NCBI RefSeq assembly: GCF_014202695.1
Contig: NZ_JACHHH010000009.1
Span: 1 to 64,000 of the forward strand
Source: Oribacterium sinus
GTDB lineage: Bacteria > Bacillota > Clostridia > Lachnospirales > Lachnospiraceae
Length of the DNA stretch: 64,000 bases
Direction of reading: 5' to 3'
Below the pieces are notes generated by a model. It was not told where the DNA came from and did no database searches. It saw only the letters and a list, made by a program, of their open reading frames with translations. Made by a program: the position numbers and the translations under genes. Positions 33,202 through 55,181 of the stretch are shown piece by piece; position 1 is the stretch's first letter; each line of letters opens with the position of its first letter.

Positions 33202-34599
33202 ATGAATTATGATGTGATTATCATAGGAGCCGGTCCAGGCGGATATGTAGCGGCATTAAAGTCCGCAAAGCTGGGCTTTAAGACAGCTGTGGTAGAGAAG
33301 GACAGAGTGGGAGGAACCTGCTTAAACAGAGGCTGTATTCCTACAAAGGCCATGGTTCATGCCACTGAGCTTTACAGAGAAATGCAAAATGCAAAGGAGT
33401 ACGGTATTTTTGCCGAGAATATTTCCTATGACTACGGCAAGATTTTGGAATATAAGCAGGACATTATCGATAAGCTGGTAGGCGGAGTGGAGCAGCTCTT
33501 TAAGTCCAACGGCATCGATTACCTGAAGGGGCTGGGAACTTTAGAGAAAGACGGTTCCGTTACCGTAAGCGGTGGAGAAGGAGCAGGAAATTATCAGGCG
33601 AAGCATGTGATTTTGGCTGTTGGATCCAAGCCTGCCTTAGTACCGATTCCGGGACTGGATAGTGAAGGAGTATTAACCAGTGATGAGCTCTTCCAATTAC
33701 AGGAAGTACCCAAGAGCTTAAGCATCATTGGCGGAGGAGTAATCGGTGTGGAGTTTGCTTCCATTTTCGCCTCCTTAGGAACCAAGGTTACCATTCTGGA
33801 GGCTCTGCCCAGTATTCTGGCCAACATGGATAAGGATATTTCTCAGAATTTGAAGCTGATTTTAAAGAAGAGAGGCATCGATATCCATACCTCCGTTAAG
33901 GTAGAGAAGGTGGAAAAGGAAGCAGAGGGCGTTTCCTGCTTCTATACCGAGAAGGATGAGCCGGTAAAAGTAACATCTCAGTATGTGCTTTGTGCAGTGG
34001 GCCGTGTGCCCAATACCCAGGGACTCTTCGGAGAAGGGGTTGAACTGGAAATGGAGAGAGGCCGAGTAGTGGTAGACGAGCACTTTAAGACCTCCATGGA
34101 CAATGTTTATGCCATCGGAGACCTGATTAAGGGCTTACAGCTTGCCCACCTTGCTTCCGCACAGGGCATATGCCTTTTGGAGGAGCTGGCAGGACACAAA
34201 AGAAGCATTGACTTAAATGTGGTACCGGGCTGCGTTTACACCTCACCGGAAATAGCCTCCGTTGGAATTACCGAGGCCATCGCCAAGGAGCAGGGCTTAG
34301 AAATCAATGTTGGCAAGTTCATGATGAGCGGAAACGGAAAATCCATGATTTCCAAGGAAGAGCGTGGATTTATCAAGATTCTGTCCGACAGCAAGAGTCA
34401 TGCGGTTGTAGGTGTGCAGATGATGTGCGCAAGAGCAACGGATATGATTGGAGAGTTTGGCAATGCTGTGGCAAATGGATTCACCGTTGAACAGCTGCTG
34501 AAGGCTATGAGAGCTCACCCAACCTACAATGAAGGTGTGGGAGAGGCTTTGGAGGATGTATTCGGAGAGGCTGTACATTCCGTACCGAAGAAGAAATAG
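33202..34599 (+). CDS. lpd: dihydrolipoyl dehydrogenase (L protein)
   Basis: 465-residue FAD/NAD flavoprotein that reoxidises the dihydrolipoyl arm of GcvH. The N-terminal GAGPGG is the FAD motif, GGTCLNRGCIPTK holds the redox cysteines, GGGVIGVEFAS is the NAD motif, YAIGDL the second FAD contact, and AHPTYNEGVGEAL the C-terminal His-Glu pair. Last gene of the glycine cleavage cluster; a large palindrome ending in T6 follows at once. Confidence 0.95.
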   Translation: MNYDVIIIGAGPGGYVAALKSAKLGFKTAVVEKDRVGGTCLNRGCIPTKAMVHATELYREMQNAKEYGIFAENISYDYGKILEYKQDIIDKLVGGVEQLFKSNGIDYLKGLGTLEKDGSVTVSGGEGAGNYQAKHVILAVGSKPALVPIPGLDSEGVLTSDELFQLQEVPKSLSIIGGGVIGVEFASIFASLGTKVTILEALPSILANMDKDISQNLKLILKKRGIDIHTSVKVEKVEKEAEGVSCFYTEKDEPVKVTSQYVLCAVGRVPNTQGLFGEGVELEMERGRVVVDEHFKTSMDNVYAIGDLIKGLQLAHLASAQGICLLEELAGHKRSIDLNVVPGCVYTSPEIASVGITEAIAKEQGLEINVGKFMMSGNGKSMISKEERGFIKILSDSKSHAVVGVQMMCARATDMIGEFGNAVANGFTVEQLLKAMRAHPTYNEGVGEALEDVFGEAVHSVPKKK

Positions 34600-34606
34600 T
34601 TTAAAT

Positions 34607-34816
34607 AGAGAACTGTGAATAGTCAGCTGACTTTAAGCGCTTTTCGCAGGATAGCTTTGGAATCGGGGGCACGCTCCCGCTAACCTCGCCTCACAGGGGT
34701 TCTAAGCTTTTATAAGACAAAAGCTAAGAACCCGTGGGCTCAGATTGCCCCGTATTCCAAAGCAATCCTGCTGAAAAGCTAGCCTAAGTATTGCTCTGTT
34801 CGCAGTTCTCTTTTTT
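34607..34816. repeat. large imperfect palindrome, copy A (possible giant terminator)
   Basis: The outer arms GAGAACTG (34608-34615) / CAGTTCTC (34803-34810) are directly followed by T6. Further in, GCAGGATAGCTTTGGAAT pairs with ATTCCAAAGCAATCCTGC with one mismatch, GGGGGCA with TGCCCC, and GGGTTCTAAGCTTTT with AAAAGCTAAGAACCC at the tip. The inner core GGCACGCTCCCGCTA...TCGCC and GGGCTCAGA...CCCCGTATTC is shared with copies B (34892-35096) and C (55002-55181). It lies just after lpd. Confidence 0.85.
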
Positions 34817-34891
34817 AAACTGGAAAGAGCTCCCTAAAAGATGATTCAGAACAGGATGTGATCGTCTTCGCCTAGACACCGATTATGAATA

Positions 34892-35096
34892 AAAAGTGGC
34901 TGTAAAATCAAAATAATTTTCTAAGCAATATAGGTCTGAACTTGGGGCACGCTCTCGCTAGCTTCGCCACGTATCGGATACTAAGCGAAAAACTTCGTTT
35001 CACTTGTTTTTCGCAAGTACCGACGGGCTCAGACTACCCCGTATTCAGACCTATATTGCCGAAAATTTCTTTATTTTGATTTTTACAGCCACTTTT
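34892..35096. repeat. large imperfect palindrome, copy B
   Basis: The outer arms AAAAGTGGCTGTAAAA (from 34892) and its complement ending at 35096 pair with few mismatches. The middle stem GCAATATAGGTCTGAA / TTCAGACCTATATTGC is perfect over 16 bp. The core GGGGCACGCTCTCGCTA...TCGCC and ACGGGCTCAGACTACCCC matches copies A and C. It ends 2 bases from the 3' end of the minus-strand glycerate kinase gene. With copy A it fills most of the 499-base gap 34600-35098; 34817-34891 shows nothing else. Confidence 0.85.
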
Positions 35097-35098
35097 CT

Positions 35099-36268
35099 TT
35101 ATTGCTTTTTATGCCGCAGATGGTAGAGCCTTATCACCTGTTCAACGGTGTCCTCTAAATTTCTACGAGCAGTTTCTTTTTCCATAGCTTCTTCCAAAGT
35201 GCTGATTCCTCTAAGTATGGGGAAGTAGGCATCTATTCCGGCTTGGTTGCAGGCTTTTGCTCCTTCTGTAACGGCTCCTGCAAAGGCTATCACCGGAATT
35301 CCCTGTTCTTTAGCCAGCTTTGCTACACCAATTGGGGCTTTTCCCATGGCGGATTGTTCGTCCAACCTTCCTTCTCCGGTGATCACAAGATCAGCTCCCT
35401 GCATTTTCTCGGAAAGCCCGGTTTCTTCCAAAATCAAGGAAACTCCGGATTTTAATTCTCCTTGAAGAAAACTGCGAAAGGCAAATCCCAACCCTCCGGC
35501 GGCTCCGGAGCCCGGAGTTTCCGGATTGGCGGCAGGGTTATATTCTTTTACAAGCTCGCTATAACGCTTTATCCAAAGATCCATTTGAGAGAGCAGTTCC
35601 TTGTTTCCGCCCTTTTGGAATCCATAGACAAGACTTGCTCCATTTTCCCCGTATAGAGGATTCTCCACATCACAGGCAATCTGGAAGGAACATTGTAATA
35701 AGCCCTCAGGTACAGAAGTAGCATCTATTCTAGCCAAGTCTTTCAGGCCTTCTCCGATAGGGCAGATTTCTTCTCCGTTCTCTTTGCTAAAACGAAAGCC
35801 TAAAGCGCTTAACATTCCTATTCCACCGTCATTTGTGGCAGAACCGCCGATTCCGATTAAAAAGCGTCTGCAACCCTTGTGGTAGGCATCTAAAATCATT
35901 TCTCCCACCCCGTAGCTGCTAGTCTTTAACGGACTTCTTTTCTCCGGAGCAACTAAGGTAATGCCGGAAGCTTGGGACATTTCCATGACAGCAAGCTTCC
36001 CATCTTTCGGAGAATATTGCGAGTCTGAGAGAATACCATAATGAGCTTCCACTTCCTGAAATAAGGGTCCCTTTACTCTGACTGTTTCCAAGCTTCCTCC
36101 TAAGGCTTCCACCAGCGTTTCCACTGTGCCTTCCCCTCCGTCTGCCAGAGGAGAAATCAAAACCTCCGCATCAGGAATTACCCGTAAAATACCGCTTTTT
36201 ATGGCTTCGCCCGCTTCTTTGGAGGAGAGGCTGCCTTTGAAGGAATCTATAGCAATAAGGATTTTCAT
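35099..36268 (-). CDS. glycerate 2-kinase
   Basis: 389-residue enzyme of the GlxK/GarK family that phosphorylates D-glycerate. It begins KILIAIDSFKGSLSS and has SPLADGGEGT, IGIGGSATNDGG and VITGEGRLDEQSAMGK, all diagnostic. The start lies only 7 bases after the stop of the LRR surface protein gene, with no strong ribosome site, so translation may depend on that gene. The pairing with a surface protein is odd and says little about function. Confidence 0.93.
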   Translation of the reverse strand: MKILIAIDSFKGSLSSKEAGEAIKSGILRVIPDAEVLISPLADGGEGTVETLVEALGGSLETVRVKGPLFQEVEAHYGILSDSQYSPKDGKLAVMEMSQASGITLVAPEKRSPLKTSSYGVGEMILDAYHKGCRRFLIGIGGSATNDGGIGMLSALGFRFSKENGEEICPIGEGLKDLARIDATSVPEGLLQCSFQIACDVENPLYGENGASLVYGFQKGGNKELLSQMDLWIKRYSELVKEYNPAANPETPGSGAAGGLGFAFRSFLQGELKSGVSLILEETGLSEKMQGADLVITGEGRLDEQSAMGKAPIGVAKLAKEQGIPVIAFAGAVTEGAKACNQAGIDAYFPILRGISTLEEAMEKETARRNLEDTVEQVIRLYHLRHKKQ

Positions 36269-36275
36269 AATTTGT

Positions 36276-39200
36276 CTACGCTACCTGCCAAGCACCATCC
36301 GGGCCAAGAGTATAGCCCTGAACCTTAGTATTGAAAAGCATCTTTCCGTTATCCGCTCCGGCCTGAGGGTTCAGATAGTACCACTTGCCTTTAAGCTCCT
36401 GCCAACCGGTACGCATCTTGCCATTTTCCGCACCGACCTCTTCACTGAAGTAATACCAGAAGCCGCGAATCTCTTTCCAGCCAAGGCTCATCTTTCCCTG
36501 CTCACTGCCTTCATTTTCTTCAAAATAATACCAGGCATTGTTATAGAAAAGCCAACCGGTGAACATATAGCCTTCTTGATTAAAATAGTACCAACGATTA
36601 TTCATCCATAACCACTGTGATTTCGGGTAGCTTCCATCCGGATTTAAAATCCACCAGCCCTTTGCGTCTCTTTGCCAGTTTACATTGGACGGCAGATTGC
36701 GGTCTGCCCCTAAAACCATCGGTGTCCCGCTGTTACCGCTTGAACTGCTTCCTCCTCCGGAACCGCCACTACCTCCGGAACTACCGCCTCTGCCGGAGCC
36801 GCCATTGCCACTTCCGGAATAAGACGGAATCGGTGCTTCTCCGGAATCATCCGGCTTGTAGTCCGTAAAAAGCGGGTTCACATATCGTGTACCAATTTTC
36901 ACGGAAGAGTGATTTTCTATACGATTCTTTCCCTTATAGCTCATCTGATCTTTATAGAAAGCGCCTGTCCCGATAGCTGTAACGGAGGAGGGAATCGTGA
37001 TGGTATTGCTTTCTTTTAAGTCACGGAAAGCACTTTCCCCGATACTTTCCAGTCCATCCGGCAAGGATAAATCTCCCTTGTAAGAAAGATTACGAAAAGC
37101 GGAATTCCCTATTTTCTTTAAATTCTTCGGGAAGACAAGATTGCCTCCTATCGATTTTTTATAAAAAACAGAATCCCCTATTTCTACGATAGAATCCGGC
37201 AACACTAAACCCTTCTTAATGTAAGTGATACCTTCCAAGGCATGGGGATCCAAGGCAGTAATATTCCCCTTTAATTCCAGATGCGCTTCCCTTCCGAGAG
37301 CATGCAAGAGCTTATTCCATGAGCGAAGTTCTCCGTTTGCAGTAAGACCCTGCATCCGCCCGTTACCTTCTATTGTAAGCGTATAGGGGTTCTTTTCTCC
37401 TGTTAATTGCCAGCTAAAATTCCCGTCGCTGCGAGGAAGGCGTGCCTCATCCGATACCGTAATCACTTTTTGCAACAATTGCGTCTCACTATATGGTTTG
37501 GTGCTTCCTCCCGGACTCATTAAAAATGTACAATAGTAGGTGTGTCCCGGTAGAAAGGAAGATAGTCCTGTATCCCTTAAATCAAACAGATAAGAAGTAA
37601 ATGTCTTATTTGTTCCGGGAAGCCGCCATCCGTTTCCGCTTGAAAAAAAGATCAGTCTCAGGTCTCTATTCAGACTTCCACTGTCATCTGTAAAGTTCTT
37701 TACCGTAACCGCTTCGCTTGGATCTTCTGTCGTATACAGATAAAAGTTTGCATATTCATTCCCTTCCGTCTCCAACTCAAAGAAACATTTATTGATTTCC
37801 GGAAGTGTATAAAACTGTACATTTTTCATGGAAATGTTAGACTCTTTACCTTCCTGTTCTTCTTTCGCAACATTTTGCTGCACGGAAGTAAACGTGGGAT
37901 TATACTGCCTGCTTCCTTTCTCACTCATAAATACCGGAGAATGATTGATAATCGTATTTTTCTTTTCATTTCCCTTAGACTTGTAAAATGCCTTCTCTCC
38001 AATCCTCCGCACGGAAGCCGGAATCGTGACATCTCCTAAGTTTTCTGAATGATAAAAGGCATGGTCCGGTATTTCCGTAAAGGTAGAAGGAAGACTCACC
38101 GTCTCCAGATGTTCCATGCTGCCAAAGGCTTCCACCTCCACATGCAGCTTTTCTATTCCTTCTTCTATAATGACTCTCCGAATCTTATCTTTATAAGGTT
38201 CCCATGGAGCCAGTTCAAATGCATCCGTTTCCCCTCTTCCACGTAGTGTCAGAGTCATATCATTTCCGGATCCGCTTAAACTATATTCAATCTCCTTCCC
38301 TGCTCTTCCACTAAGAGATGCTTTCTGTACGATAATTCTGTATTCTTTTTTTTGCTCCCCCAGATCATCTTTTATGGTTATCAGCAATCTGGCTATTCCT
38401 TCGTGCAATGCCTCAATGGCGACCTGCCCATCCCCGTCATGCTTTAGGCGAATAGCAGCAGGATCCGTCTCTTTCATCGCTTCACAACGCAAAACATCAT
38501 AGTTAAGCAGTTTATAAAGACTGATTGTGTCTCCTAGCTCCACCGCTACCGTATCCGAAAAAGAATTTTCTTTTTTAACCAAAGAAACAGCAAATAAGGA
38601 GAAATGCTCTGCCGATACCTCTACTGCACTTCCCTTCTCCTCTATCTTTTCTGCCGCGAGCTTCTCTGCCTCTGCATCTACGCTGTCCAGATGAAACACG
38701 GAAATCTGCTTTTCCCCATCCTCCTGTAAAAAGGGAATATTGGAAAATTGAACCTTCACTTCCCCTTTCGTATTATCCGGCTGCACTTCTTCTCCATCCT
38801 TGTTGAGCACGGAGATATCGAAAATCACGCTCTGAACAAGATTTTTTTGATCCTCCTCAAGCTTCTCTTTTACAGCGGAATCCACTTTCTGTTCCTCAAC
38901 TTTAGAGAGCTTTCTTACTCGTAAAGTCGCGTCCTTTGGAAATACCCCGGAATCAGCCTGCACCGTAACAAGCACACCGGAAAGTTCTTTTTCTGCATAA
39001 AATGCGTTCTCTTCTGTAGCTTCAGACTCTATTTCCGAAATTTCTTTTTCGATTTCATTTTTTTCTTCGACTACATTTTTTCCCATTACGGTTTCTTTAA
39101 GTGCATCTTCTTCAAGTGCATTTTCTTCCATCACGTTTTCAGAATAAGTTGTACTCTTTTCTTCCGGAAAACTTTGCTTTATTCCTTCAGACAGTACCGT

Positions 39201-39293
39201 CTCATTTGCAATAGTTGCTGCAGAAACATAGGTGGAAAAGCTGCAAGATAATGCCAGAAGTAATGCCAATGCTTTTTTTGCTCTTTTTCTCAT
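36276..39293 (-). CDS. BspA-like leucine-rich-repeat surface protein with wall-binding repeats
   Basis: 1005-residue exported protein. I chose the ATG at 39293 because GAGGAG lies 4-5 bases before it and gives a proper signal peptide (MRKRAKKALALLLALSCSFS); the longer frame adds an unlikely leader. After an acidic region (about 40-80) come undetermined domains, two BspA/LRR_5 blocks (about 378-438 and 683-781; VRRIGEKAFY, LESIGESAFRDL, VTAIGTGAFY), a Gly/Ser linker (about 821-851) and aromatic wall-binding repeats (about 868-1005; GWLFYNNAWYYF, GWKEIRGFWYYF). BspA-type proteins in oral and gut bacteria bind host or bacterial surfaces. It is transcribed away from the relB-like gene. Confidence 0.87.
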   Translation of the reverse strand: MRKRAKKALALLLALSCSFSTYVSAATIANETVLSEGIKQSFPEEKSTTYSENVMEENALEEDALKETVMGKNVVEEKNEIEKEISEIESEATEENAFYAEKELSGVLVTVQADSGVFPKDATLRVRKLSKVEEQKVDSAVKEKLEEDQKNLVQSVIFDISVLNKDGEEVQPDNTKGEVKVQFSNIPFLQEDGEKQISVFHLDSVDAEAEKLAAEKIEEKGSAVEVSAEHFSLFAVSLVKKENSFSDTVAVELGDTISLYKLLNYDVLRCEAMKETDPAAIRLKHDGDGQVAIEALHEGIARLLITIKDDLGEQKKEYRIIVQKASLSGRAGKEIEYSLSGSGNDMTLTLRGRGETDAFELAPWEPYKDKIRRVIIEEGIEKLHVEVEAFGSMEHLETVSLPSTFTEIPDHAFYHSENLGDVTIPASVRRIGEKAFYKSKGNEKKNTIINHSPVFMSEKGSRQYNPTFTSVQQNVAKEEQEGKESNISMKNVQFYTLPEINKCFFELETEGNEYANFYLYTTEDPSEAVTVKNFTDDSGSLNRDLRLIFFSSGNGWRLPGTNKTFTSYLFDLRDTGLSSFLPGHTYYCTFLMSPGGSTKPYSETQLLQKVITVSDEARLPRSDGNFSWQLTGEKNPYTLTIEGNGRMQGLTANGELRSWNKLLHALGREAHLELKGNITALDPHALEGITYIKKGLVLPDSIVEIGDSVFYKKSIGGNLVFPKNLKKIGNSAFRNLSYKGDLSLPDGLESIGESAFRDLKESNTITIPSSVTAIGTGAFYKDQMSYKGKNRIENHSSVKIGTRYVNPLFTDYKPDDSGEAPIPSYSGSGNGGSGRGGSSGGSGGSGGGSSSSGNSGTPMVLGADRNLPSNVNWQRDAKGWWILNPDGSYPKSQWLWMNNRWYYFNQEGYMFTGWLFYNNAWYYFEENEGSEQGKMSLGWKEIRGFWYYFSEEVGAENGKMRTGWQELKGKWYYLNPQAGADNGKMLFNTKVQGYTLGPDGAWQVA

Positions 39294-39417
39294 TTTTCTC
39301 CTCATATATTGTTTTACAAGTTCACATTTGGCTTCTGTAGAAAAGAATACCACATGCATTAAATTATAGCAATCTTTCCGTTTTTTAAGAAAATATTTTA
39401 AAGTCATTAAAGTAATC

Positions 39418-53793: not shown

Positions 53794-55041
53794 ATGGCAC
53801 TGGCAAAGACAATGGAACCCCTTTTACAAGGAAATTCCGCGATTCGAAAGATGTTTGAACTGGGACAGGAAATGGCCGAGAAGTACGGCAAAGAAAATGT
53901 CTATGATTTCAGTCTGGGAAATCCTGTGGCTCCTGTGCCCTATGAGGTAAAAAATGCCATTATCAGCCTTTTGGAAAACCAGGATCCCCATGAGATTCAC
54001 GGCTATATGAAAAATGCCGGCTATGATGAGGTGCGGGAACAGATTGCAAGGCATCTGACAAGACGTTTTGAACTGCCCTATGAGAAGGAGCAGATTCTCC
54101 TCTGTGCCGGAGCGGCAGGAGGCTTAAATATTTTGATGCGCTGTCTTTTGGACGAAGAGGATGAGGTGCTTTGCTTTGCCCCCTATTTTACGGAGTACAA
54201 TGCCTATGTTTCCCACTACAAGGGAAAGCTTACCGTAGTTCCGGTGAAGGAAGATAATTTTTCTCTGGATATCGGCATGGCAGACCGTCTGATCCGCAGA
54301 AAAACCAAGGCGGTGATTTTAAATAACCCCAACAATCCCAGTGGTGTGGTGTATAAGGAAGAAGAGCTAAAGGCCTTGGCGGAGATGCTGAGAGAGGCGG
54401 AGGAAAGGGTGGGGCATCCCATTTATTTGATTTGCGATGAGCCCTATCGAGAGCTGGTTTATGACGATAGAACCGTTCCCTTTATGCCCGGCCTTTATCA
54501 CAACAGCATTTATCTTTATTCCTTCTCCAAAACCCTTTCCATCCCGGGAGAGAGAATCGGCTATCTGGCTATCGGGGCAGATGTGGAGGACGGAGAAAAG
54601 CTGATGCGGGCTGCTACGATTGCCGGAAGAACCCTGGGCTTTGTCAATGCCCCTTCCCTTTTCCAAAAGGTTATTTCCGAATGTTTGGAAGTGAAGGTGG
54701 ATGTGGGATTTTATGACAGAAATCGTCGGCTTCTTTATACGGAGCTTACGGAAATGGGATTTTCCTGTTTGCCGCCGGAGGGAGCCTTTTATCTTTTGAT
54801 GAAGTCCCCCTTGGAGGACACAGAGGCATTCCAGAAGATGGCGGAGGAAGAGCATATCATTATGGTGCCCACTGACGGCTTCGGCTTACCCGGCTATTTC
54901 CGCCTGTCCTACTGCATTCCCTATGAAAGCATTGAAAGCTCCCTGCCTGCTTTTCGGACTTTGTGGGAGAAGGTGAAGCATCGTAAGGAGACGGATGCAG
55001 AGCAGAAAGATAGCGATGTAAAAAATCAAAAAATTTTATAA
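53794..55041 (+). CDS. pyridoxal-phosphate aminotransferase (class I/II, aspartate-aminotransferase-like)
   Basis: 415 residues from ATG 53794, after GGGAGG; the longer frame starts upstream of that site. Marks of fold-type I aminotransferases: FSLGNP, NNPNNPSG, ICDEPYREL (Asp and Tyr contacts to PLP), the Schiff-base lysine in YSFSKTLSIPGERIGY, and FRLSYC near the end (Arg for the substrate carboxylate). The amino donor is not certain. The last ~13 residues and the stop lie inside palindrome copy C, so the tail (VKNQKIL) is encoded by the repeat. Confidence 0.9.
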   Translation: MALAKTMEPLLQGNSAIRKMFELGQEMAEKYGKENVYDFSLGNPVAPVPYEVKNAIISLLENQDPHEIHGYMKNAGYDEVREQIARHLTRRFELPYEKEQILLCAGAAGGLNILMRCLLDEEDEVLCFAPYFTEYNAYVSHYKGKLTVVPVKEDNFSLDIGMADRLIRRKTKAVILNNPNNPSGVVYKEEELKALAEMLREAEERVGHPIYLICDEPYRELVYDDRTVPFMPGLYHNSIYLYSFSKTLSIPGERIGYLAIGADVEDGEKLMRAATIAGRTLGFVNAPSLFQKVISECLEVKVDVGFYDRNRRLLYTELTEMGFSCLPPEGAFYLLMKSPLEDTEAFQKMAEEEHIIMVPTDGFGLPGYFRLSYCIPYESIESSLPAFRTLWEKVKHRKETDAEQKDSDVKNQKIL

Positions 55042-55181
55042 GCAGTATAGGCATGAAATCGAGCACGCTCCCGCTAAGCTCGCCGGTCTTTTGCAAGTAT
55101 CTGGCGTAGACTACCCTCAATTCAGACCTATATTGCCGAAAATTTCTTTATATTTTGATTTTTTACAGCTATTTTTGCCGC
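55002..55181. repeat. large imperfect palindrome, copy C, overlapping the aminotransferase end
   Basis: Third copy of the family at 34607-35096. Its left arm (GTAAAAAATCAAAAAATTTT, 55018-55037, then AAGCAGTATAGGCATGAA) aligns with copy B's left arm; the right arm ATTCAGACCTATATTGCCG... (from about 55120) is almost identical to copy B. The core GAGCACGCTCCCGCTAAGCTCGCC is kept, but the tip is shortened, so the copy is ~180 bp. The gap 55182-55322 holds nothing further that I see. Confidence 0.8.

Follow-up and report, generated by a model that had tools for sequence, protein, structure and literature searches.

The repeat described here, which lies twice between two convergent genes of Oribacterium sinus, is nearest in kind to BOX-type repeats, REPs and MITEs, and is filed as a new variant of dispersed palindromic repeats. 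BOX repeats are reportedly modular. In Streptococcus pneumoniae, the BOX, RUP and SPRITE families are small interspersed repeats with extensive secondary structure that proliferated throughout the chromosome and are judged parasitic by those who described them (PMC3049150). The Lachnospiraceae repeat is likewise small, structured and dispersed; it differs in occurring in another host group, in swapping its arms between genera while keeping its core, and in nesting.

REPs are 20-40 bp long and carry a GTAG or CGTC tag at one end (PMC3733652). The Lachnospiraceae repeat resembles REPs, BIMEs and REPINs in being palindromic, extragenic and of high copy number, and in lying mostly downstream of genes, in same-strand or convergent arrangement. 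Unlike REPs, it is about 200-220 bp long, has a different conserved core near its tip and is without the GTAG/CGTC tag, and unlike RAYT-mobilised REPs and REPINs it had no copy beside any Y1 or RAYT-like gene examined. With bacterial MITEs (PMC10969869) it shares short length, lack of coding capacity, inverted-repeat ends, multiple copies and dispersal. It departs from them in that neither a target duplication nor, among the places examined, a full-length transposon sharing its ends was seen, and in that its inverted repeats extend over nearly all of its length and differ from genus to genus. Terminal inverted repeats common to the copies, a MITE feature, were found in 37 young copies from the O. 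sinus genome and one other genome of the genus; in other genera the arms are different. The repeat is kept apart from REPs because of its size, its missing tag and the lack of a Y1 neighbour, and from MITEs because of the missing target duplication. A sequence-only reading of this DNA had proposed a dispersed, possibly MITE-like element; it is indeed dispersed, structured, multi-copy and present in relatives, but neither a target-site duplication nor a transposase partner was found. PATEs, or palindrome-associated transposable elements, are said to be longer derivatives of IS200/IS605. The likeness there is of a mobile element tied to palindromes; unlike PATEs, the present repeat has no relation that could be found to IS200-type genes of its own genome.

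The window, the whole 64-kb stretch of DNA that was analysed, contains two palindromes with a common core between a gene for dihydrolipoyl dehydrogenase (lpd; 33202..34599, plus strand; TIGR01350) and a convergent gene for glycerate kinase (35099..36268, minus strand; TIGR00045). This arrangement had been proposed in the sequence-only reading, together with outer arms that differ between the copies and are each self-complementary, and it is borne out by the repeat finder (including its inverted repeats), by folding and by the neighbouring genes. Copy A (about 34598..34821, plus strand), recognised from the arm alignment, inverted repeats I1 and I3 and the fold, has diverged arms around a core of the short, 84-nt type, GGGGCACGCTCCCGCTAACCTCGCC ... 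GGGCTCAGATTGCCCC (34666..34752, plus strand; direct repeats D1/D2). Copy B (about 34888..35103, plus strand; arm alignment, inverted repeats I2, I4 and I6, and folds) carries high-copy 'B type' arms around the core GGGGCACGCTCTCGCTAGCTTCGCC ... GGGCTCAGACTACCCC (34944..35041, plus strand; repeat finder and covariance model match). When the two-copy stretch was used as a BLAST query, most of the top-scoring places in its own genome matched copy B. The common core appears as two direct repeats, D1 (34726-34757 and 35015-35046, 81%) and D2 (34666-34690 and 34944-34968, 88%). The left end of copy B (34890..34907, plus strand) consists of an A-run and GTGGCTGTA and resembles one half of a bidirectional terminator; the right end (35079..35098, plus strand) is TACAGCCAC plus a T-run; both are read from the sequence and the young-copy consensus. 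From these spans copy A starts inside the lpd stop codon and copy B ends inside the glycerate kinase stop codon, and the two copies take up most of the gap. Copy A folds at -107.3 kcal/mol (z -11.72) and copy B at -91.5 kcal/mol (z -13.67), or -98.7 kcal/mol (z -12.55) on the reverse strand; in each case 0 of 200 shuffles were as good. Farther along the window, a 1043-aa open reading frame (36276-39407, minus strand) has a C-terminal stretch that resembles choline-binding surface protein models, at scores far below their cut-offs.

Copies were counted with a covariance model, R1, built by folding alignment A1 and adding four inner pairs. A1 holds 52 of 60 copies extracted from the O. sinus genome (G000, 2.73 Mb), 8 near duplicates of the B type being left out. 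Three R1 matches lie inside the window: copy A (34638-34777, 108.4 bits), copy B (34917-35065, 165.4 bits) and a third copy (about 55018..55175, plus strand; match 55034-55142, 55.8 bits) from which the inner hairpin has been deleted, so that AAGCTCGCC is followed directly by GGTCTTTTGCAAGTA. Weaker minus-strand matches at the same three places result from the palindromic nature of the elements. In the whole genome R1 gave 142 matches at E <= 0.01, probably a lower bound since only 150 of 1058 candidates were scored. With the two-copy stretch as query, BLAST found 82 match pieces, among them the query itself. The ten-base core word GGGCACGCTC occurs 117 times (58 + 59 by strand), and its reversed pattern, taken as a control, 0 + 0 times.

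The repeat is a real, abundant, Lachnospiraceae-wide family. The sequence-only reading had made its case depend on further copies in related genomes, and these exist. R1 matches were found in 12 of 61 genomes, the O. sinus genome included, with filters strict enough that weak copies can be missed; the others comprised 4 of 16 further genomes of the genus and 7 of 20 from the rest of the family, and the order's remaining families gave 0 of 24. A strict core pattern was present in 42 of 397 sampled Lachnospiraceae genomes and in 40 of 334 genera, and its reversed control in 0. A sample across the phylum gave 4 of 398 (3 of 5 from the same family and 1 of 393 others, G792). The strict pattern misses copies, as G026, G027 and G033 have R1 matches without a pattern match. 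Among named genomes it occurs in at least 114 stretches; Lachnospiraceae is named in 50 of the 80 titles listed, and the remainder are mostly Clostridia names or uninformative, with two metagenome bins labelled Muribaculaceae and Selenomonadaceae. The pattern has no match in the viral contigs of IMG/VR, nor has copy B by BLAST in the plasmids of PLSDB or the phages of GenBank, and a phage or plasmid origin is set aside for the lack of matches in these three collections. Rfam 15 gave 0 matches for the whole window at the gathering score; relaxed, it gave five for 34500-35200 at E 1.1-4.7, far below gathering scores and none credible. A search of Rfam and of the open-access literature found no description of the palindromic repeat.

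Elements of about 200-220 bp consist of arms of about 35-70 nt and a conserved core near the tip of the palindrome. The core pattern common across genera is CGCTCYCGCT ... ACGYARCGG-(A)-TACTAA-hairpin-AAGTACCGRCG, most letters of which were themselves required by the strict pattern of the 397-genome survey. Outside the core the arm sequence is swapped from genus to genus, and also among old copies, while Watson-Crick complementarity stays. In A1, both partners have changed in 22 of 35 pairs, and standard pairs make up 97.2% of cells; controls with the partner slid by 1-3 columns give at most 11 pairs and 42.6% paired, and no shuffle attains the observed values. Alignment A4 consists of 79 R1 matches from relatives, taken from 70 of 77 chosen sources, mostly other genera, with three rows from other species of the same genus. 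Here 33 of 35 pairs (951 cells) are doubly changed and 94.3% of cells are paired, against at most 22 pairs, 199 cells and 45.6% in the slid controls, although these counts lean to structure because A4 was fitted to the R1 model. The pair-type count of A4 is not above shuffles (117 vs 113.2, with 71 of 500 shuffles as high).

Compensating changes, for which a covariance check had been suggested, are thus present in both alignments. The accompanying claim of selection on structure fares less well at the RNA level, where the outer arms show as many A.C as G.U oppositions or more, one count excepted. In RNA whose pairing is under selection, G.U oppositions would be expected to persist and A.C ones would not. 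For the outer arms the numbers of G.U and A.C are 12 vs 17 (A1) and 19 vs 34 (A4), and a count over longer arms gave 84 vs 109 in 47 copies of the O. sinus genome and 17 vs 21 in 20 copies of relatives; with 107 copies of relatives there was a slight G.U excess, 217 vs 171. The core has 31 vs 4 (A1) and 69 vs 13 (A4), figures that fall to 5 vs 4 and 29 vs 13 when one dominating pair is left out. A strand-specific role of the core is therefore weakly supported, as its G.U bias comes largely from that one pair. Since the outer arms lack a G.U excess, their complementarity is apparently a property of the DNA, such as would result if one arm were copied from the other, and not the outcome of RNA selection, and from these counts they seem to behave mostly as a DNA palindrome. 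Covariation is usually read as proof of a functional RNA, and here doubly changed outer arms occur without a G.U excess. The repeat is a natural test case for this question, with the pattern to be expected if hairpins are maintained by template switching. Hairpins can be made or mended in one event by template switching between the arms, a mechanism already published for RNA genes (PMC8794818).

The ends of the element have been examined in 37 young copies from the O. sinus genome and from another genome of the same genus, G009. The consensus, from which single copies vary, is A5-GGGGCTGTA ... TACAGCCCC-T5, in both genomes the predicted shape of a bidirectional intrinsic terminator. T-runs of at least 4 occur at the right end in 30 of 72 copies (G000) and 18 of 24 (G009), compared with 17-19% of random windows. 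In relatives, T and A runs are found at 17 and 14 of 103 ends vs 14% and 12% of random windows and are hardly enriched. Position with respect to genes was determined with a simple ORF caller in place of annotation, and the counts for G000 and G009 stand without background gaps of their own. For 63 placed copies in G000, 30 are convergent, 17 on the same strand as both genes, 13 on the opposite strand and 3 divergent; for 23 in G009 the values are 8, 7, 7 and 1. In G000 the median distance of the palindrome edge is 31 nt to gene 3' ends (44 of 90 within 30 nt) and 207 nt to 5' ends (3 of 36 within 30 nt). Medians in G009 are 26.5 nt (17 of 30 within 30 nt) and 187.5 nt. Placement at gene ends means that the repeat may set mRNA ends.

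The preference for 3' ends is weaker in relatives, where the median distance is 42 nt to a 3' end and 87 nt to a 5' end. Another 10 cores lie inside open reading frames of at least 100 aa; these sets, like that for the end runs, include a few loci from the same genus. The 102 placed copies comprise 18 convergent, 31 same-strand, 39 opposite-strand and 14 divergent cases. Background gaps of at least 150 nt in the same loci (n = 226) comprise 38 convergent, 47 divergent and 141 tandem ones, and convergent gaps are no commoner for copies (18/102 vs 38/226). The suggestion of a very large bidirectional terminator thus agrees with the young-copy ends and the gene 3' position in G000 and G009, where by prediction the ends may serve as bidirectional terminators, but not with the relatives, whose end runs are hardly enriched; for these and their weak 3' preference, termination as a family-wide function is unsupported. 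Among 472 neighbouring open reading frames from 182 loci there was no conserved neighbour gene, the largest clusters being FtsX permease (8) and sensor kinase (5), both generic families.

Several observations bear on mobility. The elements of G000 and G009 are 88-91% identical in their 15 best matches, and lpd only 75%. In G009 no element lies 3' of lpd; an ordinary hairpin with a T-run is there instead, and gene order beyond it differs. Of 38 fetched G009 loci (five places occur twice among them), 36 have an element, and 10 match in their flanks an element locus fetched from the O. sinus genome, a set that did not include all loci of that genome; the 10 include the element-free lpd locus (L265), and two of them, L268 and L280, are one place. 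No target-site duplication was seen in the 37 young copies, where the best of 3,872 combinations of offset and length reached z 2.79 vs a swapped control.

Candidate mobilising partners were sought in nine element-rich genomes, some of them drafts, so that absences of genes are not certain. No IS256-type transposase was found in any of the nine, and on this absence a relation to IS256, which the look of the element ends had suggested, is rejected. Reverse transcriptase is absent from 4 of 9, and is not supported as a required partner. A Y1 transposase is present in 8 of 9; among genomes of the genus that lack an R1 match, 4 of 6 have one too. There was no R1 match within 1.5 kb of 6 Y1 genes in G000 and G009, and the core is absent from 6 stretches around 7 longer Y1 genes in G369, G006, G004 and G013; a relation to IS200/IS605 is rejected for the lack of an element beside Y1 genes in the loci examined in these six genomes. 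G004, a member of the same genus without an R1 match, yields 30 hits for the Y1 transposase family, and many of these are short fragments. In G369 four Y1 matches (C5:153518-154822, C19:5658-5990 and C22:20903-21235) lie in open reading frames of 257-281 aa, which are longer than IS200 TnpA and perhaps RAYT-like; their fetched surroundings contain no element core.

Probably the element is mobile but non-autonomous, a palindromic repeat that has spread by transposition or copying and whose conserved core would serve for recognition. This reading is favoured by more than 100 copies, by the identity of 88-91% for elements vs 75% for lpd, by patchy presence and by the element-free lpd of G009. Against it stand the missing target duplication, the failure to find a partner enzyme or a vehicle, the weak 3' preference in relatives and the pair-type count of A4. 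A mobilising factor, with its gene at another place in the genome, would recognise the core, the part whose sequence the genera have in common. Template switching at the DNA level, acting on the hairpin, would keep the arms perfect, in which case their compensation would be mostly a mutational by-product, and copies may survive downstream of genes because they are harmless there or are used as the gene's terminator. A structured RNA with a cellular function, either a cis element of mRNA 3' ends or a small RNA, with copies kept by selection on the fold, is very unlikely. It would account for the strong covariation in A1 and A4, for a core pattern conserved in 40 genera and for the G.U surplus of the A4 core that persists (29 vs 13) when the dominating pair is set aside; yet the outer arms of A1 and A4 show no such surplus, orientation to genes is without preference (same vs opposite strand 17 vs 13 in G000 and 7 vs 7 in G009), the family is absent from Rfam, and its distribution is patchy, 12 of 16 other genomes of the genus having no R1 match under the stricter filters, by which weak copies can be missed. 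We also think it improbable that the copies are duplicated bidirectional terminators of the host with the core being merely a loop. Proximity to stop codons in G000 and G009, the A5-GGGGCTGTA ... TACAGCCCC-T5 ends, small hairpins of the same stem without a complete core in both genomes, and the ordinary terminator-like hairpin that G009 has where G000 has copy A would all fit. However, what is conserved is the core, for which a terminator has no need, the small hairpins are equally explicable as deletion derivatives, and the relatives have hardly any enrichment of T and A runs and only a weak 3' preference (42 vs 87 nt, 14 of 102 copies divergent, 10 cores inside open reading frames).

Nesting raises a further alternative. 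Copies lie inside the inner hairpin of another copy at L098, L101, L103, L104, L105, L065 and L327, in a layout where left halves are repeated outside and right halves beyond. A scan scored 10 of 72 complete copies in G000 and 1 of 23 in G009 as nested; the control, drawn from loci rich in elements, is imperfect, as nesting was also scored at 13 of 665 and 2 of 190 random positions. An element that inserts into hairpin tips, its own included, possibly via a single-stranded hairpin intermediate and with a pre-existing hairpin as its outermost arms, would explain these 10 of 72 copies, the missing target duplication, sites that are where terminators lie, and the existence of small hairpins with the same stem. 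It would also explain why about 10 bases outside CTGTA fit their own partner better than swapped ones (19 copies; permutation p 0 to 0.001 in three windows), but those bases are the variable GGGG and A-run ends and there is no excess farther out (p 0.476, 0.472 and 0.858). Nested junctions are alike, and nesting has therefore perhaps been inherited as a unit; together with the 13 of 665 random positions that also scored, this leaves insertion into tips a rather improbable account. A bolder proposal is that movement as, or into, a hairpin sets this repeat apart as a mobile element of a new class: an enzyme would recognise the core as single-stranded DNA or as RNA and insert new copies at hairpin tips that are already there, such as those of terminators and older copies, which would yield nested shells without target duplication, while template switching would rewrite the arms so that complementarity alone is inherited. 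It is unlikely, though less so than the three alternatives above; if true, it would add hairpin targeting to the ways in which small elements are seen to spread.

Whatever the route by which it spreads, the putative mobile repeat comes in reduced and enlarged forms. G000 and G009 also contain small hairpins, about 35-120 bp long, that have the element's stem but lack a complete core; these are either deletion derivatives or former targets. A search with GGGGCTGTAAAAA, allowing one mismatch, led to element ends and small hairpins among the places examined, a set to which 20 more were added. To the eye, the small hairpins could pass for deletions between short direct repeats; a scan for overlaps, uninformative because it halts at the first mismatch to diverged references, gave a negative overlap in 9 of 10. 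A module of about 110 nt with several hairpins, starting TGACTGAGCAGTGG, follows TCGCC in the core (in copy B the position after 34968). It is found in at least four copies of the O. sinus genome (L030, L063, L084 and L088), and also in L327 and, shortened, in L329. In G009, nine copies have BLAST pieces broken at query position 1969/1970, and an exact pattern for the module occurs in 2 of the 6 such copies that were fetched (L283 and L284 of G009). L329 (G000:C2:278388-278514) retains both ends, between which only the left core and the beginning of the roughly 110-nt module are left. At L334 (G000:C1:25402-25942) there are three tandem copies with another arm sequence, of which the second and third apparently have no left arm.
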